Below are positions 35,493-51,651 of a stretch of DNA of 64,000 nt, piece by piece. Position 1 is the first letter of the stretch, and each line of letters begins with the position of its first letter. The notes under the pieces are model-generated. The model did not search any database. It was given only the letters and a program-made list of their open reading frames with translations, and was not told the origin of the DNA. The position numbers and the translations under genes were made by a program. Source of the stretch: Pinisolibacter aquiterrae (GTDB lineage Bacteria; Pseudomonadota; Alphaproteobacteria; Rhizobiales; Ancalomicrobiaceae); NCBI RefSeq assembly GCF_019160155.1, contig NZ_JAFNIH010000019.1, positions 372,001-436,000 on the forward strand, read 5' to 3'.

Positions 35493-35727
35493 CTCGATTT
35501 CGGCTGAGGACGCGAGCGGAAAGGAGAGCCGACCGCGAGAAAACCTCGCAGGACCGGACGAGCCGCATCACCTAGCAGAGCCCGCTCCCGATGGGAAATC
35601 CGAAGGTCGCGCGCTCACCGGCACGCGTCGTCGCGGGCGGCGCGGCGTCATGTGGAGAGGCCGGTTCTGGCGCTTTGCGGCAACTCGGAAGCAGGGTATT
35701 TCTGGTTGTCCGACGACGGAGCTGCTC

Positions 35728-38094
35728 ATGGAATGGTTGGGGATGCTGCTCGACACGGTCGTCGGCGGACTGCCGTCGGCGGCGGCGGCACTCTGCCCGG
35801 AGCACCTGAAGAGGCGATGGCAGCAGCGGCTCGCCGACAAGAATCCGTTCGCGACCATCTCGGACAACCATGATCTCATCCGGGCGACTAGGCTCGCGTG
35901 GATCGAGGCCGCGCAAGACGTTCTGGAGGCGGCACAAGCGCGAAAGTCAGATCGGGAATGGCACTCGCAATACGCGAGCATCTCAGCCTTCCACGACACG
36001 ATTCGGGACATCCTGCTCGACGTGCGCGAAGACGCGCTCGACCGGCGCAAGGCCCCTGGCCATTCCCCGATCGACGTGCATGTCGAGGCCGTGATCGCCG
36101 GCGTCCCAGAACGGATCTCTCTCGGCGAGCATGCGGCGAAAGGCGCGTCGGTGAGTGCCGGCTTCACCAAAACGCTGGCCGAACTCAGCAACTGGAGCGT
36201 GCCGGAAATTCCCCCGATCTTTCAACAGATCGCCGACGTCGGCCTCGCCCCCCATGGTGGAGGGGCGGCGCGGTCCTTCGGCGAGTTGGTCTTCGCGGCC
36301 TTCGCCGAAATCCTGAAGGATCCCAGGAAATACCCGCAAGCGTGCGAGGCCTTCCACATCGCCACCGAAAAGCTCGGTCGCGACCTCGGCCGAGCGACAC
36401 TCGACGCCGTGCGCGGGCTCGACGATCGGCTGGATGCTCTGACCTCGCAACTCGATGCGCTCGGCATCCTGCGCGCTGGCGTCATCCACCATCTGGAGCT
36501 CATACCGAAGATTGCGGACGATGCCGCAGCGACGCGCGACGGCGTCACTTCGGCGAACGACAAGCTCGACAAAATCATGCGGCGGATAGCGCAAGCCGAA
36601 GGCGTCCCGCTCGACGCGTTGCGCACCATCCTGACCGACATGGGCGAGGCGGCGGACGAACTCGACGCCGATCAAATCGAAGAACGGCTCAGAGCCAAGG
36701 CAGGTGAATTCAAGGCTCTGACCGACCGGCTGAACCGCCTCTCCAACGACGATCCCGAAGTCCGAGGACTGCGCCACGCGGCGGCCGAAGCGCTGGGCAT
36801 GGGCCGTTTCGCGCAGGCCGACACGCACCTCGCCGCCGCCGAAGAGCGCGATCTCGCAGGTCTGGAGGATCTGGAGGCGCTGGCGAAACAGAAGCGCCTC
36901 TCCGCAGCCGAAAGCCGCGCCGGGCGAGCCGCCGCCGCCAAGCTGCGCACCAGCCCGGACGGATACCGCGAAGCTGCGAGCCACTACGGTGAGGCCGCTC
37001 GGATCGCCGCACCCGCCGACCCCGGAATCTCGCGCGACTACGCGCGCCGGAAGGGCATGACGTTGATCGATCTGGGCGCCGAGTTCGGTCTGAACAATGC
37101 GCTTCTCGAAGCGGTCGATCATTTCAGGGAGATGACGAGCACTGTCGATCGGACCGACGATCCGCTCGAATGGGCAAGGACACAAGCCAGTCTCGGCACG
37201 GCGCTCATGAAGCTCGGTGAACGTGAAGGAGGTGTGGAGCGATTGAAGGAGGCGGTTGTCGCCTTCCGTGCGGTGCTGAAAGTCCGACGTTGGGATCGCG
37301 GTCCGCTCGAGTGGGCGATCGCACAGACCAACCTCGCCACGACACTCCTCAGGCTCGGTGAGAGAGAAAGTGGAACGGCGCGGCTCAAGGAGGCAGTCAC
37401 GGCCTTTCGTGCCGTATTGACCGTGCACCGTCGGAATCGTGTGCCGCTCCGATGGGCGATGACGCAGACCAATCTCGGCGTCGCACTCTCGATACTCGGC
37501 GAGCGTGAGGGCGAGGGCGAACGCGGTACGGCAAGATTGGAGGAGGCGGTCGAGGCTTACCGGGCAGCGCTCGAGGAATACCGGCAAGACGTCGTGCCAC
37601 TCCGATGGGCCATGACGCAGGCCAATCTCGGCACCACGCTCATGAGGCTCGGCCAACGCGAGGGCAGAACAACGCGGCTGCAAGAGGCGGTCGCCGCTTT
37701 CCGCGCGGCATTGAAGGAACAAACGCGAGAGCGCGATCCGGTGGAATGGGCGAGGACGCAGACCAATCTCGGCCTCACCCTCTTCATGCTCGGCGAGCGC
37801 GAGAAGAACACCACCGGGATGAAAGAGGCTCTCGTTGCTTTGAACGCGGCACTGGAGGAACGAAGGCAGGATCGCGCGCCACGCGACTGGGCGAACACGC
37901 TTTGCCTTGCGGGCGACGTCTTACGGACCATTGCCGACCAGAACCATGATCTCATTCTCGCCCAACTGGCCCTACGACAGATAGAGGACACGCGCCAAGC
38001 ATTCCACGCATACGGCAACGAGCGCGAACGGGTCTACCATGCCGAACAGAGTCGCGCGGCGCGAGAGTTGGTCGAGCGGTTGCGAAGAGGGTGA
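35728..38094 (+). CDS. Large TPR-repeat protein, possible modular sensor/defence protein
   Basis: The 788-residue protein has no recognised enzymatic motif. Residues 1-30 are hydrophobic (WLGMLLDTVVGGLPSAAAAL), possibly a membrane or lipid contact. A helical domain of about 240 residues follows, then a coiled-coil-like region. A conserved-looking linker (AEGVPLDALRTILTDMGE, RLSNDDPEVRGLRHAA, HYGEAARIAAP) precedes five and a half TPR-type repeats of 47 residues with the pattern PLxWAxTQxNLGxxLxxLGERE, from about residue 479 to 718. From memory, similar C-terminal modules in rhizobial proteins are joined to TIR, caspase-like or NTPase domains. ATG at 35728 has GGAG six bases upstream; an ATG at 35650 would add 26 residues. 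The base composition is clearly less GC-rich than the neighbours, suggesting transfer. Confidence 0.8.
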   Translation: MEWLGMLLDTVVGGLPSAAAALCPEHLKRRWQQRLADKNPFATISDNHDLIRATRLAWIEAAQDVLEAAQARKSDREWHSQYASISAFHDTIRDILLDVREDALDRRKAPGHSPIDVHVEAVIAGVPERISLGEHAAKGASVSAGFTKTLAELSNWSVPEIPPIFQQIADVGLAPHGGGAARSFGELVFAAFAEILKDPRKYPQACEAFHIATEKLGRDLGRATLDAVRGLDDRLDALTSQLDALGILRAGVIHHLELIPKIADDAAATRDGVTSANDKLDKIMRRIAQAEGVPLDALRTILTDMGEAADELDADQIEERLRAKAGEFKALTDRLNRLSNDDPEVRGLRHAAAEALGMGRFAQADTHLAAAEERDLAGLEDLEALAKQKRLSAAESRAGRAAAAKLRTSPDGYREAASHYGEAARIAAPADPGISRDYARRKGMTLIDLGAEFGLNNALLEAVDHFREMTSTVDRTDDPLEWARTQASLGTALMKLGEREGGVERLKEAVVAFRAVLKVRRWDRGPLEWAIAQTNLATTLLRLGERESGTARLKEAVTAFRAVLTVHRRNRVPLRWAMTQTNLGVALSILGEREGEGERGTARLEEAVEAYRAALEEYRQDVVPLRWAMTQANLGTTLMRLGQREGRTTRLQEAVAAFRAALKEQTRERDPVEWARTQTNLGLTLFMLGEREKNTTGMKEALVALNAALEERRQDRAPRDWANTLCLAGDVLRTIADQNHDLILAQLALRQIEDTRQAFHAYGNERERVYHAEQSRAARELVERLRRG

Positions 38095-38164
38095 TGGAAC
38101 GGGTCATGTCTGGAGTACGGCGAGTGTCGAGGCACCCGCCGAACCCCAGAGGAACACATGCCCC

Positions 38165-39427
38165 TCACCCCACCGGCCGTTCGTCGGCGATCACCTTGCC
38201 GTCCCTCGGCAGCGCGCCCGGCTCCACCCGGACGACGCCGCCCTTGAGCTTGGTCACCGCCTGCAGGGTCGCCGCCACCTTCGCCGGCAGGGCGCCGTCC
38301 TCCGTCTCGGTCTCGATGCGGAGCTCCATCGCGTCCTGCTCGCGCTCGCGGGTCACGACCAGCCGCGCCAGCCGGATCTCGGGATGGCGCTTCACCACCC
38401 GGTCGATGTCGGAGGGGTCGACGAACATGCCCTTGACCTTGGCCTTCTGGTCGGCGCGGCCCATCCAGCCCTTGATGCGCGGGCCGGTCCGGCCGCAGGG
38501 AGAGGCCTCGGTGAGCAGCGCCGAGAGGTCGCCCGTGCCGAGCCGGATCACCGGATGGACCGTGTCCGCCCGGCTCACCACCACCTCGCCGACCTCGCCC
38601 GGCGCGACCGCGTCGCTCGTCCCCGGCCGCACGATCTCGAGCACGATCCGCTCGTCGACCACCATCCCCGGATTGACCGAGCCGTCCGGCGCGTCGGTCT
38701 CGTAGGCGACCAGTCCCACGTCGGCGATCGCGTAGCATTGCCGCACCTTGACCCCGCGCGCCTCGAGCTCGGCGCGAAGCGTCGCCGGCAGCGCCGCGCC
38801 GGTCACCAGCGCCACTTGCAGGGACGAGGTGTCGCGGCCGAGCTCGCGGCCCGAATCGAGCAGGATCTTGAGGAAGTCGGGCGTCCCGACATAGGCGCGC
38901 GGCCGATAGTGCTCGATCAGCTCGAGCTGCGCCTCCTTGTTGCCCGGCCCGGCCGGGATCACCGGGCAGCCGAGCGCCCGCGCCCCCGCGTCCAGAATGA
39001 AGCCGCCCGGCGTCAGGTGATAGGCGAAGGTGTTGAGCACCACGTCGCCCTTGCGGATTCCCGCCGCATGGAGCGCGCGCGCGGTGCCCCACCAGTCGGA
39101 CGCGGCGCCCTCGGGCTCGTAGACCGGCCCCGGCGAGGTGAAGAGATGCGCGACGCCGGAGAGATCCGACGGCGTGATCTCGGCGAAGGGCCGGTTCTCC
39201 GACTGCAACAGCTTCAGCGCGTCCTTGCGCAGCACCGGGATCGCCGCGAGGTCGCGATAATGGCGCAGCGCCATCGGCTCGACCGTGGAAAACCGCTTGC
39301 GCCACAGGCGCTTGCGCGCCAGATCGGCGATCGCGCCGGCCAGCGCCGCCATCTGCTCGCGTTCGCGCACACGCGGCCCCCGCGTCTCCGCCCGATCGAA
39401 CCCCCGCGCCATGGGACGCCCCCTCAT
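38165..39427 (-). CDS. Phenylacetate-CoA ligase-like adenylate-forming enzyme
   Basis: The 420-residue protein resembles PaaK-type ligases: SGVAHLFTSPGPVYEP in place of the nucleotide-binding loop, FAYHLTPGGFILDAGARALGC, YVGTPDFLKILLD, LVTGAALPATLRAELEARGVKVRQCYAIADVG, VVSRADTVHPVIRLGTGDLSALL, and GRADQKAKVKGMFVDPSDIDRV. These enzymes activate an aromatic carboxylate to its CoA thioester using ATP. The start overlaps the stop of the ABC ATPase gene as ATGA. A later ATG at 39412 is possible. Its place at the end of the importer operon suggests it activates the imported acid. Confidence 0.85.
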   Translation of the reverse strand: MRGRPMARGFDRAETRGPRVREREQMAALAGAIADLARKRLWRKRFSTVEPMALRHYRDLAAIPVLRKDALKLLQSENRPFAEITPSDLSGVAHLFTSPGPVYEPEGAASDWWGTARALHAAGIRKGDVVLNTFAYHLTPGGFILDAGARALGCPVIPAGPGNKEAQLELIEHYRPRAYVGTPDFLKILLDSGRELGRDTSSLQVALVTGAALPATLRAELEARGVKVRQCYAIADVGLVAYETDAPDGSVNPGMVVDERIVLEIVRPGTSDAVAPGEVGEVVVSRADTVHPVIRLGTGDLSALLTEASPCGRTGPRIKGWMGRADQKAKVKGMFVDPSDIDRVVKRHPEIRLARLVVTREREQDAMELRIETETEDGALPAKVAATLQAVTKLKGGVVRVEPGALPRDGKVIADERPVG

Positions 39428-40260
39428 GCCAGCCAGCGCTTGCGCCGCTTGTAGTGTTTGACTTCCTTGAAACTCTTGCGCCCCGCCGCCGCCACGCCGA
39501 GGTAGAATTCCTTGACGTCCTCGTTCTCCGCCAAGGCCTTCGCCTCGCCGTCCATGACGATTCGCCCCGATTCGAGAATGTAGCCGTGGGTCGCCCAACG
39601 CAACGCGACCGCCGTGTTCTGCTCGGCGAGCAGGAACGAGACGCCCTCTTGCGTGTTGAGCCGATGGACGATCTCGAAGATCTCGTCGACGATCTGCGGC
39701 GCCAGCCCCATCGAGGGCTCGTCGAGCAGGATCATCGTCGGCCGCGACATCAGCGCCCGCCCCACCGCCACCATCTGCTGCTCGCCGCCCGAGGTGTAGC
39801 CGGCGAGCGACTTGCGGCGCTGCTTGAGGCGCGGAAAGAGCTCGTAGACCTTCTCGAGATCCGCCTTGATCGCGCCGCGCCCGTCGGCCCGGGTGAAGGC
39901 GCCGGTCAGGAGATTGTCCTCGACCGTCAGATGGCCGAAACAGTGCCGGCCCTCCATCACCTGGATGCAGCCGCGCCGCACCAACTCGTTGGGCGAGAGA
40001 TCCTGCACCTCCTCGCCGTTGAAGACGATCTTGCCCTTGGTCACCTCGCCGCGTTCGGCGTGGAGCAGGTTGGAGACCGCCTTCAGCGTCGTCGTCTTGC
40101 CGGCGCCGTTGGCGCCGAGCAGCGCCACCACGCCGCCCTTCGGCACCGTCAAGGAAACGCCCTTCAGCACCAGCGCGACGTGGTCGTAGACCACTTCGAT
40201 GTTGTCCACGGCGAGCAGCGGCCGGGCCGCGGGCGTCGTCTCGGATGTCTTCTCGGACAT
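39424..40260 (-). CDS. livF: Branched-chain-type ABC transporter ATPase, LivF-like
   Basis: The 278-residue ATPase has Walker A GANGAGKTT, the Q-loop region CIQVMEGRHCFGHLTVEDNL, signature SGGEQQ, and Walker B MILLDEPSMGLAP, the pattern of LivF-type subunits. The C-terminal YKRRKRWLA tail is basic. It works with LivG, LivH, LivM and LivK encoded on the same strand. The symbol denotes subunit type, since the substrate may not be an amino acid. Its end is coupled to the ligase gene. Confidence 0.9.
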   Translation of the reverse strand: MSEKTSETTPAARPLLAVDNIEVVYDHVALVLKGVSLTVPKGGVVALLGANGAGKTTTLKAVSNLLHAERGEVTKGKIVFNGEEVQDLSPNELVRRGCIQVMEGRHCFGHLTVEDNLLTGAFTRADGRGAIKADLEKVYELFPRLKQRRKSLAGYTSGGEQQMVAVGRALMSRPTMILLDEPSMGLAPQIVDEIFEIVHRLNTQEGVSFLLAEQNTAVALRWATHGYILESGRIVMDGEAKALAENEDVKEFYLGVAAAGRKSFKEVKHYKRRKRWLA

Positions 40261-40413
40261 GGGGTGTCGGTGCCTCGATGAGGTGTCGAGTGGGAAGGAG
40301 CCGTGGACGAAGTGTGGGTCAGACCTTCGCCCACGGCGATCGCCCGGGAGCGGCGAACCGCTCGCGCGCTTCGACGGGCCGCTCGGGGGCCGCCCGTCGA
40401 TTCGATCGCGACC

Positions 40414-41745
40414 TCAGCGGCCGCCACAGGCCTCGGTGCGCGCCGGCCACGGCGCGTTCTTGTCGGCATAGGCCTTGGCGTCGGCGAGAAGCGTCGGACG
40501 AATCTTGTCCGTCATCGGCTCGATCCAGTCGGAGACCTTCACCCACTTGGCCCCGTCCCACTGCTGCACGTAGACCGGGTTCTCACCGGAATGGTCGTCG
40601 CAGGTGACCTTCATCGGCGCCATGAAGCCCTCGAGCCCCATTTCCTTGATGCGGGCGGCGTCGATGTTGAGCGTCTCGAGACCGGCGCGCATGTCGGCGG
40701 CGTCGATCATCTTCTTGCCGGCGATCTTCTGCGCGTTGCGGATCGCCTCGGCGATCAGCATCGAGTTGTAGACGCCGTGATTGTAGTTGTTCTCGCCGAT
40801 GCGATCCTCGCCCTTCACCTGCGACAGGCCCTTGGCGAAGACGTATTTCTTGATGTCGGCGAGCGCGGGATAGTTCGCGCCGGTGCCGTTGAAGTTGAGC
40901 GTCAGGAAGCCCTTGGCGCCCGCGCCGCCGGCCTTGGCGTCGTCGTCGCCGCCGGAGAACCACACGCCGATGAAGCGATCCATCGGATAGCCGATCTTGG
41001 CGGCCTCCTTGACGGCGGTCGGGTTCATCGCGCCCCAGCCCCACATGATCATCCAATCGGGGCTGTCCGACTGGACGTTCAGCCACTGCGACGACTGATC
41101 CTGCATCTTGTCGCCGGGCACCGGATATTTGGCGAGCTTGAAGCCGTTCTCCTTGGCGAGCTCTTCCAGGAGCGGGATCGGCTCCTTGCCGTAGGGCGCG
41201 TCGAGATAGATGTAGCCGATGGTCTTGCCCTTGAGCTTGGCCATGCCGCCCGACTTCTCGGCGATGTACTTGATCGCGACCGAGGCGCCGTCCCAATAGG
41301 TCATCGGCGGATTGAACACCCACGGGAAGGTCTTGCCGTCCGCCGCGGCGGACAGGCCGTAGGCCATCGACAGGACCGGGATCTTGTCGACGCCGGCCTT
41401 GGGGATCAGCTGAAGCGTGATGCCGGTCGACCAGGGATTGTAGACGAGCGCGCCCTTGCCCTTGGTGGCCTCGTAGCACTCGACACCCTTCTGGGAGTTG
41501 TAGCCGGTCTCGCATTCCTCGAGCGCCAGCTTCACACCGCCGATGCCGCCGTCGCGCTGATTGAGCATCTCGAGATAGTCGTGCATGCCGTCGGCGATGC
41601 CGATGCCCGAACCGGCATAGGCGCCGGTGCGATAGGTGAGCAGCGGCACGTAGAGGCTCTCCTCCGCATGCGCCGTCGAGATCGGCGGCAGGACGGCGGC
41701 GATCACCGAGGCCACTGAAAAGGCTAGTCCAAGACGTCCGAACAT
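40414..41745 (-). CDS. livK: Branched-chain-type ABC substrate-binding protein, LivK-like
   Basis: The 443-residue protein has a signal peptide (LGLAFSVASVIAAVLPPISTAHAEES) and a type I periplasmic binding fold. It contains PLLTYRTGAYAGSGIGIADGMHDYLEMLNQRDGGIGG, YNPWSTGITLQLIPKAG, and IGYIYLDAPYGKEPIPLLEELAKENG. The subgroup is that found with aromatic acid or acyl-CoA ligase genes rather than with leucine transport. GGAGGAAA lies eight bases from the ATG. Two cysteine pairs (ECETGYNSQKGVEC, TCDD...ACGGR) may form disulfides. Confidence 0.88.
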   Translation of the reverse strand: MFGRLGLAFSVASVIAAVLPPISTAHAEESLYVPLLTYRTGAYAGSGIGIADGMHDYLEMLNQRDGGIGGVKLALEECETGYNSQKGVECYEATKGKGALVYNPWSTGITLQLIPKAGVDKIPVLSMAYGLSAAADGKTFPWVFNPPMTYWDGASVAIKYIAEKSGGMAKLKGKTIGYIYLDAPYGKEPIPLLEELAKENGFKLAKYPVPGDKMQDQSSQWLNVQSDSPDWMIMWGWGAMNPTAVKEAAKIGYPMDRFIGVWFSGGDDDAKAGGAGAKGFLTLNFNGTGANYPALADIKKYVFAKGLSQVKGEDRIGENNYNHGVYNSMLIAEAIRNAQKIAGKKMIDAADMRAGLETLNIDAARIKEMGLEGFMAPMKVTCDDHSGENPVYVQQWDGAKWVKVSDWIEPMTDKIRPTLLADAKAYADKNAPWPARTEACGGR

Positions 41746-41863
41746 CTGCGTTTCCTCCGCTCTCGGTGCCGCTCCCCCGTCTCGTTCGCGGGAGATGTGA
41801 CACCCTGGGCCGTCGTCGCACGAGGTCCGCCGACCGGCCCGTGCCGGCGGATGGGGGCGCCCC

Positions 41864-42940
41864 TCACCAGGGGAAGGGCCACACCCGAAGCTTCTGCTTG
41901 GTCACCGCCCACAGGCGCGCGAGCCCGTGCGGTTCCACGATCAGGAAGAAGATGATCAGCGCGCCGACGATCATCGAATTGACGTGCTCGACCCGCGCCG
42001 AGGGCACGTCGATGCCGACGAGGCCGGGCGCGAACTTGATGACGACCGGCAGCGCCCAGATGAAGGCCGCGCCGAGCCACGATCCGAGCAGGCTGCCGAG
42101 CCCGCCGATGATCACCATGAACAGCACCTGGAACGACAGCGTGATGCCGAAGGCCGAGGGCTCGGCCGCGCCCAGCCAGAAGAACACCATCATCGCCCCG
42201 GCGACGCCGGCGAGATAGGACGAGACCGCGAAGGCGAGGAGCTTCGCCGGCAACAGCCGCACACCCATCAGCTCCGCTGCGATGTCCATGTCGCGCACCA
42301 TCATCCAGGTCCGCCCGATGCGGCCGTGGACGAGGTTCGAGGTGATCCAGGTGAGGAACACGACGAGCCCCAGCACCACGAAATAGCGCGTCAGCGGATC
42401 CGCCTCCGGCCCCGAGATCGACAGGCCGAACAGCGTCCGCCGCACCGCCTCGATGGCGCCGGAAGACGAATAGTCGGTGAGCCAGCCCATCCGCACGAAG
42501 CACCACTCGAGGAAGAACTGCGCCGCCAGCGTCGTCACCGCCAGATAGAGCCCTTTGATGCGGAGCGACGGCAGGCCGAAGATCACGCCGATCCCGGCCG
42601 AGAAGACCCCCGAGCAGAGGATCCACACCAGGAGGTTCACCTCGGGAAAGGCATTGGCGAGCTTGTAGGCGGCATAGGCGCCGACGCCCATGAAGGCGCC
42701 GGTGCCGAGCGAGATCTGCCCCGCGTAGCCGGTCAGGATGTTGAGCCCGATCGCCGCCAGCGTGAAGATCAGGCCGGGGATCAGGATCGAGGTCAGAACG
42801 AAGTCGTTCGAGACCAGCGGCAACACCACCACGGCGATCGCCAGCAGCACGAGGATGCCGATCCGATCCTGACGGATCGGAAACACCGCCATGTCGGCCG
42901 CGTAGGTCGATTTGAACTGTCCGACTTCACGATAGAACAT
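41864..42940 (-). CDS. livM: Branched-chain-type ABC permease, LivM-like
   Basis: The 358-residue membrane protein has eight or more helices. It carries the LivM segment LNILTGYAGQISLGTGAFMGVGAYAAYKL in three adjacent stretches, then GLPSLRIKGLYLAVTTLAAQFFLEW, and the C-terminal MVIIGGLGSLLGSWLGAAFIWALP. These are the family hallmarks. It pairs with LivH to form the channel. A 177-base gap with a nested palindrome separates it from livH. Confidence 0.92.
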   Translation of the reverse strand: MFYREVGQFKSTYAADMAVFPIRQDRIGILVLLAIAVVVLPLVSNDFVLTSILIPGLIFTLAAIGLNILTGYAGQISLGTGAFMGVGAYAAYKLANAFPEVNLLVWILCSGVFSAGIGVIFGLPSLRIKGLYLAVTTLAAQFFLEWCFVRMGWLTDYSSSGAIEAVRRTLFGLSISGPEADPLTRYFVVLGLVVFLTWITSNLVHGRIGRTWMMVRDMDIAAELMGVRLLPAKLLAFAVSSYLAGVAGAMMVFFWLGAAEPSAFGITLSFQVLFMVIIGGLGSLLGSWLGAAFIWALPVVIKFAPGLVGIDVPSARVEHVNSMIVGALIIFFLIVEPHGLARLWAVTKQKLRVWPFPW

Positions 42941-42991
42941 GGGTCTCGATCCTGAAGCTCGTCGTCGTCGAAAGGGAGCACGGGAACCGTC

Positions 42992-43061
42992 GGGCGGAAT
43001 AGGTGACGCCGTATTCCGCCATCGGCGCCCCGGGCGGAATACGGCTGTGCCTATTCCGCCC
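42992..43061. repeat. Nested palindromic repeat between livH and livM
   Basis: GGGCGGAATAGG (42992-43003) is complementary to CCTATTCCGCCC (43050-43061). Inside, CGTATTCCGCC (43010-43020) is complementary to GGCGGAATACG (43033-43043). The whole can fold as one long stem or as two adjacent hairpins. Repeats with the GGCGGAATA motif are widespread REP-like sequences in Proteobacteria. It may tune read-through between the two permease genes. Confidence 0.75.
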
Positions 43062-43117
43062 TACGAGGCCGCGTTCACCGGCGGCGATGGTGTCGTGGTG
43101 CATGGTCATCGTCGTCC

Positions 43118-44074
43118 TCACACCCGCTCGATGATCTTTTCGCCGAACAGGCCCTGCGGCCGGAACAGCAGGAAGCCGAGCGCGATCAGATAGGCGAGCC
43201 AGCTCTCGATGCCACCGCCCAAGAGCCGCCCCCAATAGATCTCGCCGACCTTCTCGCCGATGCCGATCATCAAGCCGCCGACGATGGCGCCCGGCACCGA
43301 GGTGAAGCCGCCGAGGATCAGCACCGGCAGCGCCTTCAGCGCGATGATCTCGAGATCGAACGACACTTGCGAGCGCGCCCCCCACATGATGCCGGTGACC
43401 AGCGCGACGACGCCGGCGGCGAACCACACGATCACCCAGATCTTCTCGAGGGAGATGCCGACCGACAGCGCCGCCTGATGATCGTCGGCGACCGCCCGGA
43501 GCGCCCGGCCGATCTTGGTTCGGGCGAAGAACACCGCGAGGAAGGCCACCATCGCCAGCGCCACCACCGCGGCGGTGATGTCGATCTCCTTCAGGATCAG
43601 GGTCTTGCCGAAGAGCGGAACCCGCAGGACGTCGGTCGGAATGCCGAGCGCGCCGGTGATCATCACCTTGGGCTCGCCGCCGAACACCATCTCGCCGAGA
43701 CCGACCAGGAACCGCGTGAGGCCGATCGTCGCCATCAGGAGGATGATGTCGGGCTGGTTGACCAGCGGTCTCAGCACCAGCTTCTCGATGCCGAAGGCGA
43801 GGATCAGCATGGCGACGACCGCCGCCGCCAGGGCCAACCACCCCGGCATGCCCATCTCGGCGAGGCCGACCAGCGTCAGCGCGGCGAACACCACCATGAT
43901 GCCCTGGGCGAAGTTGAAGACTCCCGAGGCCTTGTAGATCAGCACGAAACCGAGCGCGACCAGCGCGTAGAGCACGCCGGAGACGAAGCCCTCCCACACC
44001 ACCTGGACCAGGAAGGTCGGGTTCGTGCCCATTCGGACGAAGGGATCGAGGAAGATCGAGGCGAGGAGATCCAT
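43118..44074 (-). CDS. livH: Branched-chain-type ABC permease, LivH-like
   Basis: The 318-residue membrane protein has the LivH pattern: FVSGVLYALVALGFVLIYKASGVFNFAQGIMVVFAAL near the start in consecutive helices, GRALRAVADDHQAALSVGISLEKIWVIVWF in the central cytosolic loop, and ALPVLILGGFTSVPGAIVGGLMIGI near the end. It forms the importer channel with LivM. It lies 13 bases downstream of livG. Confidence 0.92.
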   Translation of the reverse strand: MDLLASIFLDPFVRMGTNPTFLVQVVWEGFVSGVLYALVALGFVLIYKASGVFNFAQGIMVVFAALTLVGLAEMGMPGWLALAAAVVAMLILAFGIEKLVLRPLVNQPDIILLMATIGLTRFLVGLGEMVFGGEPKVMITGALGIPTDVLRVPLFGKTLILKEIDITAAVVALAMVAFLAVFFARTKIGRALRAVADDHQAALSVGISLEKIWVIVWFAAGVVALVTGIMWGARSQVSFDLEIIALKALPVLILGGFTSVPGAIVGGLMIGIGEKVGEIYWGRLLGGGIESWLAYLIALGFLLFRPQGLFGEKIIERV

Positions 44075-44087
44075 GGGTCGCTTCTCC

Positions 44088-44882
44088 TCAGTGGGACCGG
44101 CCGAGATAGGCGTCGATGACGGTCTGGTCGTTCTGGACCTCGTCGGGCGTGCCGTCGGCGATCTTGCGGCCGTATTCGAGCACCACCACCCGGTCGGAGA
44201 GATCCATCACCACCCCCATGTCGTGTTCGATGAGCGCGATCGTCGTGCCGTAGGTCTCGCGGATGTCGAGGATGAAGCGGCTCATGTCCTCCTTCTCCTC
44301 GAGGTTCATGCCGGCCATCGGTTCGTCGAGCAGCAGGAGTTCCGGCTCCTGGGCGAGCGCGCGCCCGAGTTCCACCCGCTTCTTGAGCCCGTAGGGGAGC
44401 TTGCCGACGGGCGTCTTGCGGATGTGCTGGATCTCCAGGAAGTCGATGATCTCCTCGACCTTGGCGCGGTGATCGATCTCCTCGGCGAGCGCCGGGCCGA
44501 AGCGCAGGCACTGCCAGAAGAAGCCGCGGGTCATCTTCAGGGTCCGCCCCGCCATGATGTTGTCGAGGGTGGAGAGCCCCTTGAAGAGCGCCACGTTCTG
44601 GAAGGTGCGGCCGATCCCGCGCCGCGCCGCCTCGTGCGGCCGGCGGCCCGTCCGCGCCTCGCCGCGATGGACCACACGACCGATCTGGGGATGGTAGAAA
44701 CCGTTGATGACGTTGAGCATCGACGTCTTGCCGGCGCCGTTCGGGCCGATGATCGCGCGCACCTCGCCCGCCTTGATGTCGAAGGACACGTCGGTCAAGG
44801 CCTTCACGCCGCCGAAGGAGAGCGAGATGTTCTCGACCGCGAGCAACTGCTTGCCGTGTTCGATCGGGGTGAGCCCACTCAT
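44088..44882 (-). CDS. livG: Branched-chain-type ABC transporter ATPase, LivG-like
   Basis: The 264-residue ATPase has Walker A GPNGAGKTS, the LivG-type segment RRGIGRTFQNVALFKGLSTLDNIMAG, a signature-like LPYGLKKRVELGRAL in which the usual LSGG is replaced by LPYG, Walker B LLLLDEPMAGM, and LIEHDMGVVMDLSDRVVVLEYG. The changed signature is common in LivG relatives that sit with acyl-CoA ligases. Its start overlaps the stop of the acyl-CoA ligase gene by four bases. Confidence 0.9.
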   Translation of the reverse strand: MSGLTPIEHGKQLLAVENISLSFGGVKALTDVSFDIKAGEVRAIIGPNGAGKTSMLNVINGFYHPQIGRVVHRGEARTGRRPHEAARRGIGRTFQNVALFKGLSTLDNIMAGRTLKMTRGFFWQCLRFGPALAEEIDHRAKVEEIIDFLEIQHIRKTPVGKLPYGLKKRVELGRALAQEPELLLLDEPMAGMNLEEKEDMSRFILDIRETYGTTIALIEHDMGVVMDLSDRVVVLEYGRKIADGTPDEVQNDQTVIDAYLGRSH

Positions 44883-46858
44883 TCCGCCGCCTCCCTCTGC
44901 GCGGTCGGATGGACCGTCATGTCCTCGATCTTCACGTCGCCGGTGATGCTGCCCTTGCGACCGTCCTCGAAGGCGATCTCGGTGACCACGTGCTTCTCGG
45001 TGGAGCCGTCGTAGAGCGCCTCCACCAGCGGGGCATAACGATCGGCGATGAAGCTGCGCCGCACCTTCTGGGTCCGGGTCAACTCGCCGTCGTCGGCGTC
45101 GAGTTCCTTGTGCAGGACCAGGAAACGGCGGATCTGCGCGCCCGCCATCATCGGTTCGGCCGCGAGGTCGCGATTGACCCGGTCGACCGCCGCCCGGATG
45201 CGCTCGATGACGCGTGGGTGGCCGGCGAGTTCCTGGTAGCTCGCGTAGGTGACGTCGTTGCGCTCGGCCCAGGCGCCGACCGAGCCGAGATCGATGTTGA
45301 CGAAGACCGTCACGAAGTCACGCTTGTCGCCGAAGGCCACCGCCTCCTTGATGTCGGCGAAGAACTTGAGCTTGTTCTCGATGTATTTCGGCGCGAACAA
45401 GGTGCCGTCGGCCAGTTTGCCGACGTCCTTGGCGCGGTCGATGATCTTGAGATGCCCGGTCGCGTCGACGAAGCCGGCGTCGCCCGAGCGCACCCAGCCG
45501 TCGGGCGTCTTGGTCTCGGCGGTGGCGGCGTCGTTCTTGTAGTAGCCGACGAAGACGCCGGGGCTCTTGTAGAGCACCTCGCCGCTGTCGGAGATCTTGA
45601 TCTCCACCTCCGGCGCCGGCACCCCGACCGTCTCGGCGTGGATCTCGGCATCCGGCTGCATCGTCACGTAGACCGAGGCTTCGGTCTGGCCGTAGAGCTG
45701 CTTCAGATTGATGCCGAGCGCGCGGAAATAGCGGAAGATCTCCGGCCCGATCGCCTCGCCGGCGGTATAGGCGACGCGGGTGCGCGAGAAGCCGTAGCGG
45801 TTCTTGAGCGGCCCGTAGACCAGGATCTCGCCGAGCCCGTAGGTGAGACGATCCATCAGCCCGACCGGCCGGCGATCGAGGATCGCCTCGCCGACCCGGT
45901 CGGCCACCTTCAGGAAATGCTCGACCATGCGCTGCTTGACGCGGCCGGCGTCCTGCATCCGGACCTGCGTGCGGGTCAGGAGGCTCTCGTAGACGCGCGG
46001 CGGGGCGAAGACGTAGGTCGGACCGATCTCGCGGCGATCGTCCTCCACCGTCTCCGCGCTCTCCGGACAGGAGACGCAGAAGCCGGCGATCAGCGATTGG
46101 GCATAGGAGAAGATGTGGTCGCCGACCCAGGCGATCGGCAGATAGGCGACGACCTCCTCGCTCTCGCCGAGCCGGTCGAAATCGATGCCGTTGCGGGCCG
46201 AGATCAACACGTTGTCGAAGGAGAGCATCACCCCCTTCGGCTTGCCGGTGGTGCCGGAGGTGTAGAGCATCACGGCGAGGTCGAAGCCGCGCCCCAACTC
46301 GATCCGCGCCCGCCAGCCCGCCTCGAGCACGGGATCGCGATCGCGCGCCTCCCGCCCCGACCGCGACACCTCGACGAAGGCGTGGAGCCGGCCGTGCTCG
46401 TAGTCGCGCATGCCGCGCTCGTCGTCGTAGATCATGTGGCGCAGCGCCGGCAGGCGACCGGCCACCGAGAGAACCTTGTCGACCTGCTCCTGGTCCTCGG
46501 CGACGACGAAGGCGACCTCGGCGTGCTCCAGCACATAGGCCATCTCGTCGGCGACGCTGTCCTTGTAGACCGGCACCGGCACCGCGCCGAGCGACTGCAC
46601 GGCGGCGAAGGTCCAATAGAGCCGCGGCCGGTTGGCGCCGATCACCGCCACCTTCTCGCCGGCCTCGAGACCGAGTTTCTGAAGGCCGAGCGCGTAGTCG
46701 CGCACCAGATCGGCGACCTCGCCCCACGTCCAGGTCTGCCAGATGCCGAGATCCTTCTCGCGCATCGCCGGACGATCGCGACGGTTCACGGCATTCCAGA
46801 TCAACAGTTTGGGAAAGGTGTCCCGTTCGCCGGAACGGGTTTCTCCCGCCGTCGCCAT
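44879..46858 (-). CDS. AMP-dependent acyl-CoA synthetase (long-chain type)
   Basis: The 659-residue protein is of the long-chain acyl-CoA synthetase class. The phosphate loop is LYTSGTTGKPKGV, followed by YLPIAWVGDHIFSYAQSL, QLYGQTEASVYVTM, WVRSGDAGFVDATGHLKIIDRAKD and FAPKYIENKLKF. It makes acyl-CoA from a carboxylic acid, CoA and ATP through an acyl-adenylate. It is the first gene of the liv-type operon and is coupled to livG. Together with the PaaK-like ligase at the other end, it suggests uptake and activation of aromatic or medium-chain acids; the substrate is inferred. Confidence 0.9.
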   Translation of the reverse strand: MATAGETRSGERDTFPKLLIWNAVNRRDRPAMREKDLGIWQTWTWGEVADLVRDYALGLQKLGLEAGEKVAVIGANRPRLYWTFAAVQSLGAVPVPVYKDSVADEMAYVLEHAEVAFVVAEDQEQVDKVLSVAGRLPALRHMIYDDERGMRDYEHGRLHAFVEVSRSGREARDRDPVLEAGWRARIELGRGFDLAVMLYTSGTTGKPKGVMLSFDNVLISARNGIDFDRLGESEEVVAYLPIAWVGDHIFSYAQSLIAGFCVSCPESAETVEDDRREIGPTYVFAPPRVYESLLTRTQVRMQDAGRVKQRMVEHFLKVADRVGEAILDRRPVGLMDRLTYGLGEILVYGPLKNRYGFSRTRVAYTAGEAIGPEIFRYFRALGINLKQLYGQTEASVYVTMQPDAEIHAETVGVPAPEVEIKISDSGEVLYKSPGVFVGYYKNDAATAETKTPDGWVRSGDAGFVDATGHLKIIDRAKDVGKLADGTLFAPKYIENKLKFFADIKEAVAFGDKRDFVTVFVNIDLGSVGAWAERNDVTYASYQELAGHPRVIERIRAAVDRVNRDLAAEPMMAGAQIRRFLVLHKELDADDGELTRTQKVRRSFIADRYAPLVEALYDGSTEKHVVTEIAFEDGRKGSITGDVKIEDMTVHPTAQREAAE

Positions 46859-46890
46859 GCGCGTCTTCTCCCCTCGGCGTCTCGCATTCT

Positions 46891-46905
46891 CACCGAATTT
46901 CGGTG
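46891..46905. promoter_or_regulatory. Palindromic operator candidate before the acyl-CoA synthetase operon
   Basis: CACCGAATTTCGGTG is a perfect 7-bp inverted repeat around one base, 33 bases upstream of the first gene of the operon. The size suits a dimeric regulator such as a TetR-type repressor. AT-rich sequence (ATTAAATGGGATTAAT near 46922-46937) lies just beyond and may hold the promoter. Confidence 0.4.
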
Positions 46906-47057
46906 GCGCTCGATCGTTCGATTAAATGGGATTAATGCCGAGTTTCGTCTCGGACGCAAGCCTCGAGCGCCGCCCATTGGTCGTAGAGAAGGAAATTCCA
47001 GTGGGCCGAAAAAATGCATGCTCACTGCATGTCGATGCCGTCGGAGCGAAAATGAGA

Positions 47058-47090
47058 AGGCCCGGAGGGCGTTTCTCGCCATCCGGGCCT
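47058..47090 (-). terminator. Terminator of the TRAP transporter operon
   Basis: AGGCCCGGA (47058-47066) and TCCGGGCCT (47082-47090) are perfectly complementary, and an inner GGCG/CGCC stem lies within. On the minus strand the hairpin is followed by TCTCATTTTC. It stands 67 bases after the dctM stop and before the acyl-CoA synthetase operon. Confidence 0.75.
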
Positions 47091-47156
47091 CGTCGGTTCG
47101 AACCGCTTTCGCACGCCGTGGGCGCCGGTTTTCGGCCTCCCGCGCGCGCCCCCGCG

Positions 47157-48746
47157 TCATTGCGACGCGTAGAGCAACCTCGGCAGCCAGGTCGCGAGCG
47201 ACGGCCATTCCCACAGCACCCACAGCATCGCCACCTGGATGACCACGAAGGGCACCGCGCCGAGATAGATGTGCGAGGTCTTGACCTCCGGTGGCGCCAC
47301 GCCGCGCAGGAAGAACAGCGCCGCGCCGAAGGGGGGATGCATGAACGAGGTCTGGAGATTGACGCTCATCAGCACGCCGAGCCACACCGGGCTCATCGCC
47401 GAACCGTCCGGCATCGGCATCTTCAAGAGCACCGGCGCGGCGATCGGCACGACGATATAGGCGATCTCCAGATAGTCGACGAAGAAACCGAGCAGGAACA
47501 TCGCGATCATCACGACGATGATCGCCTGGGCCGAGCCGCCCGGCAGCGCCTCGAGGTGACGCGCCACCATCGCCTCGCCGCCGAGGCCACGGAACACCAG
47601 GCTGAAGAAGGTCGCGCCGATGACGATGGTGAAGACCATCGTGGTGATCTCGGTGGTGGTGCGCACCACGGGCCGCAGCACTTCCCCCTTGAAGTTGACC
47701 CAGGTCGCCAGCAGCACGCCCGCCGCCAGCACCAGCGACAACACCACCGAGGCGGCGATCCCGAGCGACTGGAGCCCGGTGGTGTCGGAGCGACCGAGCC
47801 GCATGTCGACGGTGGTCGCCAGCACCAGCAGCGCCGCCAGCGCCACCCAGGTCGCGACGAACCACGGCGTGAGATGCGGCGCGCGCCGCTGGCCGCCGAG
47901 CAGAAGCGTGCCGACCGCGCCGACCGAGGCCGCTTCCGTCGGCGTGGCGATGCCGAACAGGATCGATCCGAGCACGCACAGGACGAGCGCCACCGGCGGG
48001 ATCAGAGCGCCGGCCACTTCACCGAGCGTCACCTTGCCGAGGCCTTCCGGCGCCGGCGGCGAGCTCTTCGGCGAGACGATCGCCACCACCACCTGATAGA
48101 CGATGTAGAGACCGGCGAGCGCGAGACCGGGGATCAGCGCGCCGGCGAAGAGATCCGACACCGAGACGGTCTCGGGGGCGAAGTTGCCCATGTCGGTCTG
48201 CGCGGTCTGATAGGCGTTGGCGAGCACGTCGCCGAGCACCACCAGCACCAGCGACGGCGGAATGATCTGCCCGAGCGTTCCCGCCGCCGCGATCGATCCG
48301 GCCGCCAGTTTCGGGTCGTAGCCCCAGCGCAGCATGGTCGGCAGCGACAGGAGCCCCATCGTCACCACCGTCGCCCCGACGATGCCGGTCGAGGCCGCGA
48401 GCAGCGCGCCGACCAGCGTCACGGATATGCCGAGCCCGCCGGGGAGGCGGCCGAACAGCCGCCCCATCGTCTCGAGCAGCAGTTCCGCCACCTTGGAGCG
48501 CTCGAGCATCACGCCCATGAAGACGAACAGCGGCACCGAGATCAGCACCGGGTTGGTCATGATGCCGAAGATGCGCTGCGGCAGCGCCGCCAGGAAGGTC
48601 GGGTCGAAGGCCCCGAGCATCCAGCCGATCACCGAGAACAGGATCGCCGTCCCGGCGAGCGTGAAGGCGACCGGAAAGCCCGCCAGCAGCACGACACAGG
48701 CGACGACGAACATGCCGACGTCGAGCCATTCGGACACGGTGTTCAT
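47157..48746 (-). CDS. dctM: TRAP transporter large permease subunit
   Basis: The 529-residue membrane protein is the ion-coupled large subunit of a TRAP transporter (DctM class). It has more than twelve helices, with PVLISVPLFVFMGVMLERS, GSIAAAGTLGQIIPPSLVLVVLGD, ATPTEAASVGAVGTLLLGG and NLQTSFMHPPFGAALFFLRGVAP, all conserved family segments. The loop after GTLLLGG is longer than in the short DctM form. It starts with ATGA overlap on the small subunit. No solute-binding (DctP) gene is present in the window, so the substrate cannot be predicted. Confidence 0.92.
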   Translation of the reverse strand: MNTVSEWLDVGMFVVACVVLLAGFPVAFTLAGTAILFSVIGWMLGAFDPTFLAALPQRIFGIMTNPVLISVPLFVFMGVMLERSKVAELLLETMGRLFGRLPGGLGISVTLVGALLAASTGIVGATVVTMGLLSLPTMLRWGYDPKLAAGSIAAAGTLGQIIPPSLVLVVLGDVLANAYQTAQTDMGNFAPETVSVSDLFAGALIPGLALAGLYIVYQVVVAIVSPKSSPPAPEGLGKVTLGEVAGALIPPVALVLCVLGSILFGIATPTEAASVGAVGTLLLGGQRRAPHLTPWFVATWVALAALLVLATTVDMRLGRSDTTGLQSLGIAASVVLSLVLAAGVLLATWVNFKGEVLRPVVRTTTEITTMVFTIVIGATFFSLVFRGLGGEAMVARHLEALPGGSAQAIIVVMIAMFLLGFFVDYLEIAYIVVPIAAPVLLKMPMPDGSAMSPVWLGVLMSVNLQTSFMHPPFGAALFFLRGVAPPEVKTSHIYLGAVPFVVIQVAMLWVLWEWPSLATWLPRLLYASQ

Positions 48747-49267
48747 CGGGCCGTCTCCTCGGTCTCGGCGTCGTCCTCGGTCAGCGTGGCGATCGCCCGG
48801 ATCACCGACGAGAGGCCCTGAAGGGCGAGCAGCCCGGCGAAGGCGAGCAACTCCGCCTTGAGCAGATAGAGGAAGGGCAGACCCGCCGTCTCGCGCGACC
48901 CTTCGAGGATGGCGAAGGAGCGCCACACGTAAGGGTAGGCGACCCAGAGCAGCAGCCCCGTCACCGGCCACAGGAAGACCAGCGTCCCCACCAGATCGAC
49001 GATCGCCCGCGCCTTCAGGCTCGCCTCACGATAATAGATGTCGACCCGCACATGCCCGTCGCGCAGCAGCGTGAACCCGGCCGCCAGCATGAACACCGAG
49101 GCATAGACGTAGGTGATGCCCTCCTGCAGCCAGACGAAGCCGACGCCGAAGACGTAACGCTGGATCACGACTGCGAACTGCAACAGGACGAGGGCGAACA
49201 CCCCCCAGGCGATGAAGCGGCCGACCTTGTCGTTCAAGGCCTCGATCGCTGTGGCGATTTTGAGCAT
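48743..49267 (-). CDS. dctQ: TRAP transporter small permease subunit
   Basis: The 174-residue protein has the four helices of the DctQ family (GVFALVLLQFAVVIQRYVFG, the GHVRVDIYYREASLKARAIVDLVGTLVFL segment, then two more). It partners the large subunit encoded directly downstream. The C-terminus is acidic (LTEDDAETEETAR). It is the first gene of the operon, 202 bases from the divergent amidotransferase-like gene. Confidence 0.9.
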   Translation of the reverse strand: MLKIATAIEALNDKVGRFIAWGVFALVLLQFAVVIQRYVFGVGFVWLQEGITYVYASVFMLAAGFTLLRDGHVRVDIYYREASLKARAIVDLVGTLVFLWPVTGLLLWVAYPYVWRSFAILEGSRETAGLPFLYLLKAELLAFAGLLALQGLSSVIRAIATLTEDDAETEETAR

Positions 49268-49469
49268 GAGATCCCCGAGAGGAACGAAGAACAGCGGGAA
49301 GGCCCTTCATAGACGGGCGAAACCCATCGGTCGAGCACCACGAGCGCGGGAGCCATGCGACCATCGGCTCCGTCTCGTCATTTCGCCGAGGTCGTGGCAT
49401 ATCTGCCGAACGACCGCTCGAGAGCCGGGGCCGCGCCCCCGGCCACTGGTTTCACGCTCGCGAGGTGCC

Positions 49470-50225
49470 ATGACCGCCCGTCCGCTCGTCCTTCTCTCCG
49501 CCGACTACAAGGTCATCGACGGCCTCGCCTGGCACATGACGCCGGCGCCCTACATCGAGGGCGTTCTGCACGGTGCCGGCGCCATGCCGGTGCTCCTGCC
49601 GGCGCTCGGCGGCGCGCTCGACCTCGACGCCATCCTCGCCCGCATGGACGGCGTGCTCCTGACCGGGTCGCGCTCCAACGTGCATCCGAGCCTCTACGGC
49701 GAGGAGCCGACCCTCGGCCACGAGCCCTACGACCCCGCCCGCGACGCCACCACCCTGCCGCTGATCCGCCGCGCCATCGATCTCGGCGTGCCGCTCCTCG
49801 CCATCTGCCGCGGCTATCAGGAGCTGAACGTCGCGCTCGGCGGCTCGCTCCACACGGAGATCCAGACCTTCGAGGGCCGGATGGACCACCGCGCCCCCGA
49901 CACCTCCGACTGGGACGCCCGCTTCGCCATCCGCCACCCGGTCCACATCGTCCGCGACGGCTGCATCGGCAAGATCCTGGACGCCGACAGCGTCGACGTG
50001 AATTCGCTCCACCGCCAGGGCCTCGCCCGCCTCGCCGATCGCCTGGCGATCGAGGCGACCGCGCCCGACGGCACCATCGAGGCGGTGCGCGTGGTCGATG
50101 CGAAGGCCTTCGCCGTCGGCGTCCAGTGGCATCCCGAATATTGGGTGAGGACCGACGGCCCCTCGGCCAAACTCTTCGCCGCCTTCGGCGCCGCCATGCA
50201 CGAGCGCGCCGCCGCGCGCGGGTGA
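49470..50225 (+). CDS. Class I glutamine amidotransferase-like hydrolase (PuuD family)
   Basis: The 251-residue protein resembles gamma-glutamyl-GABA hydrolase PuuD. It has GVLLTGSRSNVHPSLYGE, the nucleophile cysteine at about 113 in LLAICRGYQELNVALGG, and the His-Glu pair in GVQWHPEYW. Members hydrolyse gamma-glutamyl amides, for instance in putrescine degradation. The polyamine genes at 54-58 kb make that assignment attractive, but the neighbours here are transport genes. It has its own promoter region, divergent from the TRAP genes. Confidence 0.85.
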   Translation: MTARPLVLLSADYKVIDGLAWHMTPAPYIEGVLHGAGAMPVLLPALGGALDLDAILARMDGVLLTGSRSNVHPSLYGEEPTLGHEPYDPARDATTLPLIRRAIDLGVPLLAICRGYQELNVALGGSLHTEIQTFEGRMDHRAPDTSDWDARFAIRHPVHIVRDGCIGKILDADSVDVNSLHRQGLARLADRLAIEATAPDGTIEAVRVVDAKAFAVGVQWHPEYWVRTDGPSAKLFAAFGAAMHERAAARG

Positions 50226-50616
50226 CGGCGGGGGCGACCGGCGAAGGCCCGATCGGCCGTCCGCGAACGCGTCCTCTCCCCGCAACGACCTCGTGCGGAG
50301 ACCTTCACGGGTGAGGTGCCCGGTCGAAGACCGGGCCTCCAACCACGAAGGGCGAGAGGCACGGCCTCCGGGGATCGCGGGCGGGTCTCGGGCGATCGTG
50401 CCCATCGGCCCTTCGCCCTTCGAGGCTCGCTCACGCTCGCACCTCAGGGTGAAGCGCCTCCGCACCGGGAGCCCCGTTCGGCCGCACTCGGCCGCCACCC
50501 ATCTCTCCGGGAAGAATCGATCGGTGGCTTTCAGCCGCCGCCCATCTCTCCGGGAAGAATCGATCGGCGGCTTTCAGCCGCCGCCCATCTCTCCGGGAAG
50601 AATCGATCGGCGGCTT
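50226..50616. other. Repeat-rich intergenic region between amidotransferase-like and NicO genes
   Basis: There is no gene here. A hairpin at 50318-50336 (8-bp arms GCCCGGTC and GACCGGGC, loop GAA) lies 92 bases after the stop of the amidotransferase-like gene. A second copy of the dispersed GAGGTG-CCTCGAAG repeat lies at 50418-50445 in inverse orientation. From 50498 a 43-bp tandem repeat begins. The region lies between convergent genes and probably serves only for termination. Confidence 0.6.
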
Positions 50617-50626
50617 TCAGCCGCCG
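50498..50626. repeat. Three tandem 43-bp repeats at the 3' end of the NicO gene
   Basis: Units lie at 50498-50540, 50541-50583 and 50584-50626 and start CCCATCTCTCCGGGAAGAAT. Units 2 and 3 are identical and unit 1 differs by one base (GGTGG for GGCGG). Each unit contains the hairpin CGGCGGCTTTCAGCCGCCG or its variant. The last unit includes the stop codon and last codons of the NicO gene, so the array looks like a triplication of that gene's end. Confidence 0.92.
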
Positions 50627-51651
50627 ATCGGGCCACCCCAGATCGCCGCGCCGGTCAGGAGCGTGCCGGCGGTCAGGACGAGCAGCGCGCCCGTGACCTC
50701 CGCCGTGCGCAGGATCCGCAGGGGCCACGGCCCCTCGTCACCGGCGATCCTGAGCGCCAGATTGCGCGCGCTCACCGCCAGCGAGGCGAGAACCGACACG
50801 GTGAATCCGGTGCCGAGCGCCATCGCCATCACCGAGGCCATGCCGGGGCCCGGCATCTTCTGCGCGAAGGCGAAGACCAGAACGATCAGCGCCCCGGTAC
50901 AGGGCCGGATCCCGACCGCCGCGATCGCGCCGAGCGCCTTCTTCCAATCGAACGGCCCCTTGATCAGCGAGGGATCCGGCATGTGCGACACGCCGCAGGG
51001 ACAGGCCTGCGGCACCGCCGCCGGATCGCCGCCGATCGCGCAATCGACCACGTCCGCCTCGCTCGCCACCACCGGGGCGGCGCGCGCCGCCCGGCGCGCC
51101 CGCACGATCGGCTCGACGATCTTCACCCAGGCGAGCCACAGCCCGAGCCCGAGGATCGCCGCCGCGCTGGTGCGCTCGAGCGCCGTCGTGGCGTCGGTCA
51201 TCTGCAACGCCGTCAGATTGAAGATCAGGATCGCCGAACCGACCAGGAGGATCGCCATCGCCCCCTGCACCACCGCCGAGATGAAGGCGAGCACGATGCC
51301 GCGCTTCAGCGTCTCGTCGTTGGCGAGCACATAGGAGGTGATCACCGCCTTGCCGTGACCGGGACCGGCGGCGTGGAAGATGCCGTAGAGAAACGAGAGC
51401 CCGATCATCCACCAACCGGCGTGCGGCTGGGTCTTCATCGCCCTGAGCCCGTCCTTCAGCGCCAAGTAGAAGACGCTCTGCTGATGGACGATCCAGGCGA
51501 AGATCGTGCCGCGCGGCGCCGAGGCGCCGAGCTCCGGGTTGCCGACGCCGAAGGGACCGGCCTGGGCGAAGGCCGGTGCCGCCGTGACCATCACCGCGAG
51601 CCCGAGGACGATCGCCACGACCGCCCATCCGTGGAGCCGCCGGGCGCTCAC
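50617..51651 (-). CDS. NicO-family nickel/cobalt efflux-type permease
   Basis: The 344-residue membrane protein belongs to the NicO/RcnA family (COG2215). It has an export signal-like start (AVVAIVLGLAVMVTAAPAFA) and the histidine-rich motif FHAAGPGHGKAVITSYVL. Then come a loop with PQACPCGVSHMPD that may bind metal, VGIRPCTGALIVLVFAFAQ, and GTGFTVSVLASLAVSA. Such proteins export or import nickel, cobalt or other divalent metals. The GTG start overlaps the DUF1007 stop as GTGA. Its 3' end lies inside a 43-bp tandem repeat. Confidence 0.88.
   Translation of the reverse strand: MSARRLHGWAVVAIVLGLAVMVTAAPAFAQAGPFGVGNPELGASAPRGTIFAWIVHQQSVFYLALKDGLRAMKTQPHAGWWMIGLSFLYGIFHAAGPGHGKAVITSYVLANDETLKRGIVLAFISAVVQGAMAILLVGSAILIFNLTALQMTDATTALERTSAAAILGLGLWLAWVKIVEPIVRARRAARAAPVVASEADVVDCAIGGDPAAVPQACPCGVSHMPDPSLIKGPFDWKKALGAIAAVGIRPCTGALIVLVFAFAQKMPGPGMASVMAMALGTGFTVSVLASLAVSARNLALRIAGDEGPWPLRILRTAEVTGALLVLTAGTLLTGAAIWGGPIGG

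Follow-up and report, generated by a model that had tools for sequence, protein, structure and literature searches.

The window, a 64,000-nucleotide stretch of the Pinisolibacter aquiterrae genome, contains at 35728–38094 on the forward strand an open reading frame whose uninterrupted translation gives a protein of 788 residues (Table 1). We place the start at the ATG at 35728, rather than at the ATG at 35650 from which the frame is already open, because the starts of homologues match the former and a GGAG lies 6 nt 5' of it. The gene stands alone, as the original prediction had it, since the upstream MFS gene is divergent and the downstream CoA-ligase-like gene is convergent. A lowered GC content had also been proposed. 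Total GC is indeed lower in the gene (64.8%) than in the whole window (69.7%), and the nearby liv genes are just as low; GC3 is 75% in the gene against 91–94% in neighbouring genes. By codon usage the gene is foreign, with GC3, rather than total GC, as the decisive measure.

Table 1. Features of the gene and its product, in window coordinates.
Feature	Position	Strand	Basis
Whole gene, solitary, 788 aa	35728..38094	+	ORF translation; GC3 0.752 against 0.905-0.937 in neighbours
Shine-Dalgarno-like CGGAG	35717..35721	+	Sequence reading; GGAG 6 nt before ATG 35728
Putative output domain: helical N-terminal module, residues 1-245	35728..36462	+	Common to NACHT, STAND and nSTAND1 proteins
Predicted coiled helix, residues 246-290, varying among homologues	36463..36597	+	AF2; alignment
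Helical linker, residues 291-480	36598..37167	+	Common to caspase-TPR and esterase-TPR proteins
Putative sensor array of five TPR-type repeats (47-51 aa each), residues 482-720	37171..37887	+	Repeat reading; tandem period 141 bp
C-terminal cap, residues 721-788, 68 aa	37888..38091	+	Also found in Methylorubrum homologue

By its tandem helical repeats, the product is a TPR protein. The repeats, 47, 47, 51, 47 and 47 aa long in order, start at residues 482, 529, 576, 627 and 674, and their periodicity is also visible as a tandem structure in the DNA. Pfam reports TPRs below threshold in the window protein and TPR_10 strongly in homologues, so that the predicted C-terminal array holds, as does the preceding linker as a conserved unit. 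AF2 modelling of residues 1–241 from 12 sequences returned an all-helical structure (pLDDT 74, pTM 0.69) that is confident over residues ~50–125 and ~140–195 and poorly predicted over the first 20. The best 19-residue Kyte-Doolittle mean is 1.51 (residues 4–22); the N-terminus, originally described as hydrophobic, is therefore only mildly so and has no clear membrane segment or signal peptide. In the alignment of the module, the charged residues R34, D49, R52, R55, E60, E77, R100, R106, D116 and E194 are invariant. A HEPN-type R-x4-6-H motif, seen by eye at R107-H112, was rejected, as H112 is not conserved.

The N-terminal module is unnamed in the libraries that we searched; figures and supplements of the surveys cited below, which may show it, lie outside that scope. 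Pfam searches of 12 module members gave no convincing N-terminal match (a single chance match, E = 0.078), and the window protein had no match in NCBIfam or in PADLOC-DB 2.0.0, by which it is not a catalogued anti-phage system; its homologues gave weak PADLOC matches in the TPR region only. No profile for a TIR, caspase, nuclease or gasdermin effector domain matched in these searches (Pfam for the 12 members, PADLOC and NCBIfam for the window protein). PDB sequence searches with the whole protein and with an N-terminal profile returned nothing or chance matches to de novo proteins, and Foldseek searches of the AF2 models against the PDB (two models) and BFVD (one model) gave nothing at E < 0.001, in keeping with the original description of a helical domain of no known fold. 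Generic helical bundles and BAR-like coils among the Foldseek results were dismissed (best E about 0.1, low TM-scores). The module was also not found in phage and viral collections.

Across genomes, the module is rare, patchy and accessory. It occurs in 2 of 397 genomes of the order, 3 of 385 in a class sample and 5 of 398 in a phylum sample, tallies that all include the window's own genome, and in 1 of 179 genomes of a Pseudomonas sample and 7 of 100 in the family of genome G853. Each of 14 genomes, namely that of the window and 13 of 13 other carriers checked, has one match; genome G1330 has two adjacent pieces that are apparently one broken copy. Neither congener has this gene or the MFS gene upstream of it, and both keep the downstream ligase gene, which rules out a housekeeping role at this locus and excludes a family fixed there in all relatives. 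The congeners also have a NiCoT-type transporter gene directly after the ligase gene. In the window this transporter lies at 50.7 kb, so that the segment from 38.1 to 50.6 kb appears inverted, with the gene at one breakpoint. This segment (38100–50650, roughly 12.5 kb) carries the liv operon and the CoA ligase; the NiCoT and DUF1007 genes, which follow the ligase directly in the congeners, lie at 50.7–52.2 kb in the window, beside tRNA-Phe (50557–50647).

A search of 84,980 species genomes returned 11 loci with the N-terminal module, on several protein builds. The same linker and TPR array follow it in Methylorubrum rhodinum (L037), whose protein is 58% identical to the window protein over 710 aa, and in Zavarzinia (L038); other linkers with similar TPRs follow it in L039, L040, L041, L042 and L043. 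In L036 (the same gene as L023), an N-terminus 55–60% identical to that of the window protein precedes a different TPR array, with a weak, TPR-like C-terminal match of 24% to the window protein. Judged by their alignments, L036 and L037 are an apparent C-terminal swap behind a common N-terminal module. A P-loop motif, APGGAGKT, can be read by eye in L044, for which Pfam reported TPRs only, and suggests a STAND+TPR protein. The module is joined to NACHT and FGE-sulfatase domains in L055 (profile search, E = 5e-82), L117, L118 and L119, with the domains assigned by Pfam except in L118, where they were assigned by eye. In L056 (profile search, E = 6e-28; Pfam) it is joined to nSTAND1 and ankyrin repeats. 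A distant STAND-TPR protein, L053 (genome G641), aligns to the module over 58 columns with a probability of 90%; it was treated as suggestive and left out of the counts. By natural recombination, the conserved module has come to stand before several C-terminal parts that are unrelated to one another, namely TPR, STAND-TPR, NACHT-FGE and nSTAND1-ankyrin parts.

The NACHT-FGE proteins with the module were found in one family of Pseudomonadota, that of L045 (Nitrosomonas). A ribD-like and an asnB-like gene flank three of the four genes, and the FGE C-termini of the proteins are strongly divergent; the listed stretches around the genes show no ORF for a reverse transcriptase. Other family members have module fragments or copies with stops (L114–L116), so that the gene is apparently gained and lost within this family. 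In the nSTAND1-ankyrin protein (L056:5230-10044, minus strand), a further, unassigned stretch at residues ~290–500 lies between the N-terminal module and the NTPase.

The linker and TPR array also occur behind other N-termini. Linker profile matches, some of them weak, were found in 12 of 297 genomes of the order. Linker and array follow caspase-like domains (PF00656) in L026, L027, L028, L080, L081, L091, L092 and L094, where Pfam C14 confirmed the caspase for L026, L027 and L091 and SGHG and DACR motifs identified the remainder; these versions carry apparent signal peptides. They also follow a serine esterase in L082 (PF05057, DUF676) and a signal-peptide region in L083. TPRs of the same type with other linkers stand behind HTH_3 domains in L025 and L031. 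The original prediction had named TIR, caspase-like and NTPase domains as the varied N-termini of this unit. Of these, the caspase-like domains are borne out; TIR domains were not found among the partners examined, and NTPases, which do partner the N-terminal module, were not observed on this particular linker and array.

At some loci, the module gene has defence genes nearby. In Pseudomonas graminis (L043) some 340 bp separate it from a PD-T7-5 gene (E = 2.5e-121), beyond which an exonuclease effector gene and a restriction-type gene follow, and the stretch L043:13123-20541 is likely a defence island. In Hydrogenophaga, module genes lie near PDC-S06 or ABC-three-component genes. The neighbours tested at the window locus and five other loci gave no PADLOC match; the association rests on a subset of neighbours and amounts to an indication rather than a test of enrichment.

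These architectures invite comparison with known systems. Bacterial STAND/NACHT-FGE (FGS) counter-invader proteins have variable N-termini (PMC8195603), with retroelement-diversified examples (PMC10907252). L055, L117, L118 and L119 bear the N-terminal module on exactly that build, whereas the window protein has TPRs in place of NACHT and FGE, and the module lacks a name in the searched libraries. The Avs and bNACHT anti-phage NLR-like proteins (PMC12169576; PMC12931631) are similar in their variable N-terminal output, C-terminal sensor and accessory genes, but the window protein lacks an NTPase and a known effector domain. Alphaproteobacterial caspase-TPR proteins (PF00656 with TPRs; L026, L027, L080, L091) have a homologous linker (26–29% identity) and TPRs of the same 47-aa type; in contrast, they begin with an apparent signal peptide followed by a caspase-like domain. 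EADs (PMC7159879) are likewise helical and occur on conflict proteins with different partners. EADs are small domains, however, of which one genome has several copies, each on a different protein, whereas the window module is much longer and single-copy.

Judged against NLR/STAND proteins, the window protein has a C-terminal repeat array, which would be the sensor, and an exchangeable N-terminal domain, found on four other builds, but no central STAND NTPase with a P-loop. Pfam finds no NTPase in it, whereas module-bearing relatives do have one. The window protein is therefore not itself an NLR; the NLR-like build of the original prediction survives in its architecture and its STAND/NACHT relatives. 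Because NACHT-FGE and nSTAND1-ankyrin are standard NLR-type builds, residues 1–245 match the place that outputs or adaptors occupy in NLR-like proteins. Repeat or lectin sensors are C-terminal and output or adaptor domains N-terminal in such proteins (PMC8195603, PMC10907252, PMC12169576), and many bacterial NLR-like proteins have N-terminal extensions without characterised domains (PMC10907252).

We consider it fairly probable, from sequence comparison, that the gene encodes a self-contained sensor-effector of the conflict or immune type, with the N-terminal domain as an output module of NLR-like proteins. Other readings have to be weighed against this one. It is very improbable that the gene was transferred and is now decaying or without function: its place at one end of the roughly 12.5-kb inversion and the broken or short module pieces elsewhere (L045; G1330, with stops) would fit, but the frame of 788 codons is intact and preceded by a ribosome-binding site, and every part of the protein is kept in the alignment with its full-length Methylorubrum homologue. 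An everyday regulatory or scaffolding role for this TPR protein, in transport, the envelope or signalling and with no part in immunity, is rather improbable. TPRs are general protein-binding repeats, the neighbouring genes in the window encode transport proteins and a CoA ligase, and TPRs of the same type also follow HTH_3 and signal-peptide regions. The gene is nevertheless rare and patchy with a foreign GC3, it is missing from congeners that retain the downstream ligase gene, and its N-terminal module is found on NACHT and STAND proteins and, in P. graminis and Hydrogenophaga, among defence genes.

In a further reading, the N-terminal module is an adaptor, EAD-like or death-domain-like, that performs no chemistry of its own and brings in a separate effector through like-with-like binding, leaving the TPR protein as scaffold or sensor. 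The all-helical prediction is consistent with this, as is the presence of the module on NACHT-FGE proteins, where N-terminal adaptor domains are common (PMC8195603). On the other hand, the module is about 240 aa long, against the small size of published EADs (PMC7159879), and the 14 genomes checked have no second module-bearing protein, which the EAD principle needs; the two adjacent pieces in G1330 look like one broken copy. On balance, we regard this adaptor reading as unlikely.

For the sensor-effector, we infer an anti-phage role and an effector chemistry. The protein would probably sense and act in a manner similar to NLR-like proteins: the TPR array would bind a ligand related to infection or damage, and the linker, acting as a restraint, would link this binding to the N-terminal module, which would then be released or cluster and, as the output part, cause growth arrest or cell death. 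Within this reading, a division of the output chemistry that reflects judgement and not measurement tentatively places first a perturbation of the inner membrane through the conserved first helix and helical bundle, an option prompted by the conserved amphipathic start of the module. A self-associating adaptor and an unrecognised enzyme are possible at somewhat lower and equal weight, the latter kept because many charged residues are invariant. Against the sensor-effector are the missing NTPase, which leaves the window protein with no known oligomerisation motor, the lack of defence genes among the neighbours tested at the window locus and five other loci, the apparent export of the caspase versions of the linker and array, and the poorly predicted and only mildly hydrophobic first helix. 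The boldest form of the proposal, which we put forward as doubtful, is that residues 1–245 could be an undescribed, inner-membrane-acting cell-death output domain of prokaryotic NLR-like proteins, taxonomically scattered but rare in Pseudomonadota, that is used both with a STAND or NACHT motor and, here, without one under direct TPR control.

The effect of an NLR-like protein on the cell is decided by its N-terminal module, and one such module is now delimited, with its members and partners. Natural proteins that keep it without an NTPase make its function testable in small constructs, and they raise the question of whether the NTPase is needed for output at all.

Because the caspase versions appear to be exported, the linker and TPR array may not always serve to detect cytoplasmic phage and could have another target. 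Genome G253 has up to seven linker matches (L080, L091, L094, L096, L097, L098), and the copies read are apparent exported paralogues with caspase, linker and TPRs. In L029:6189-8681 (minus strand), the same TPR type stands behind a further N-terminus of no recognised kind, which has a hydrophobic, glycine-rich stretch.
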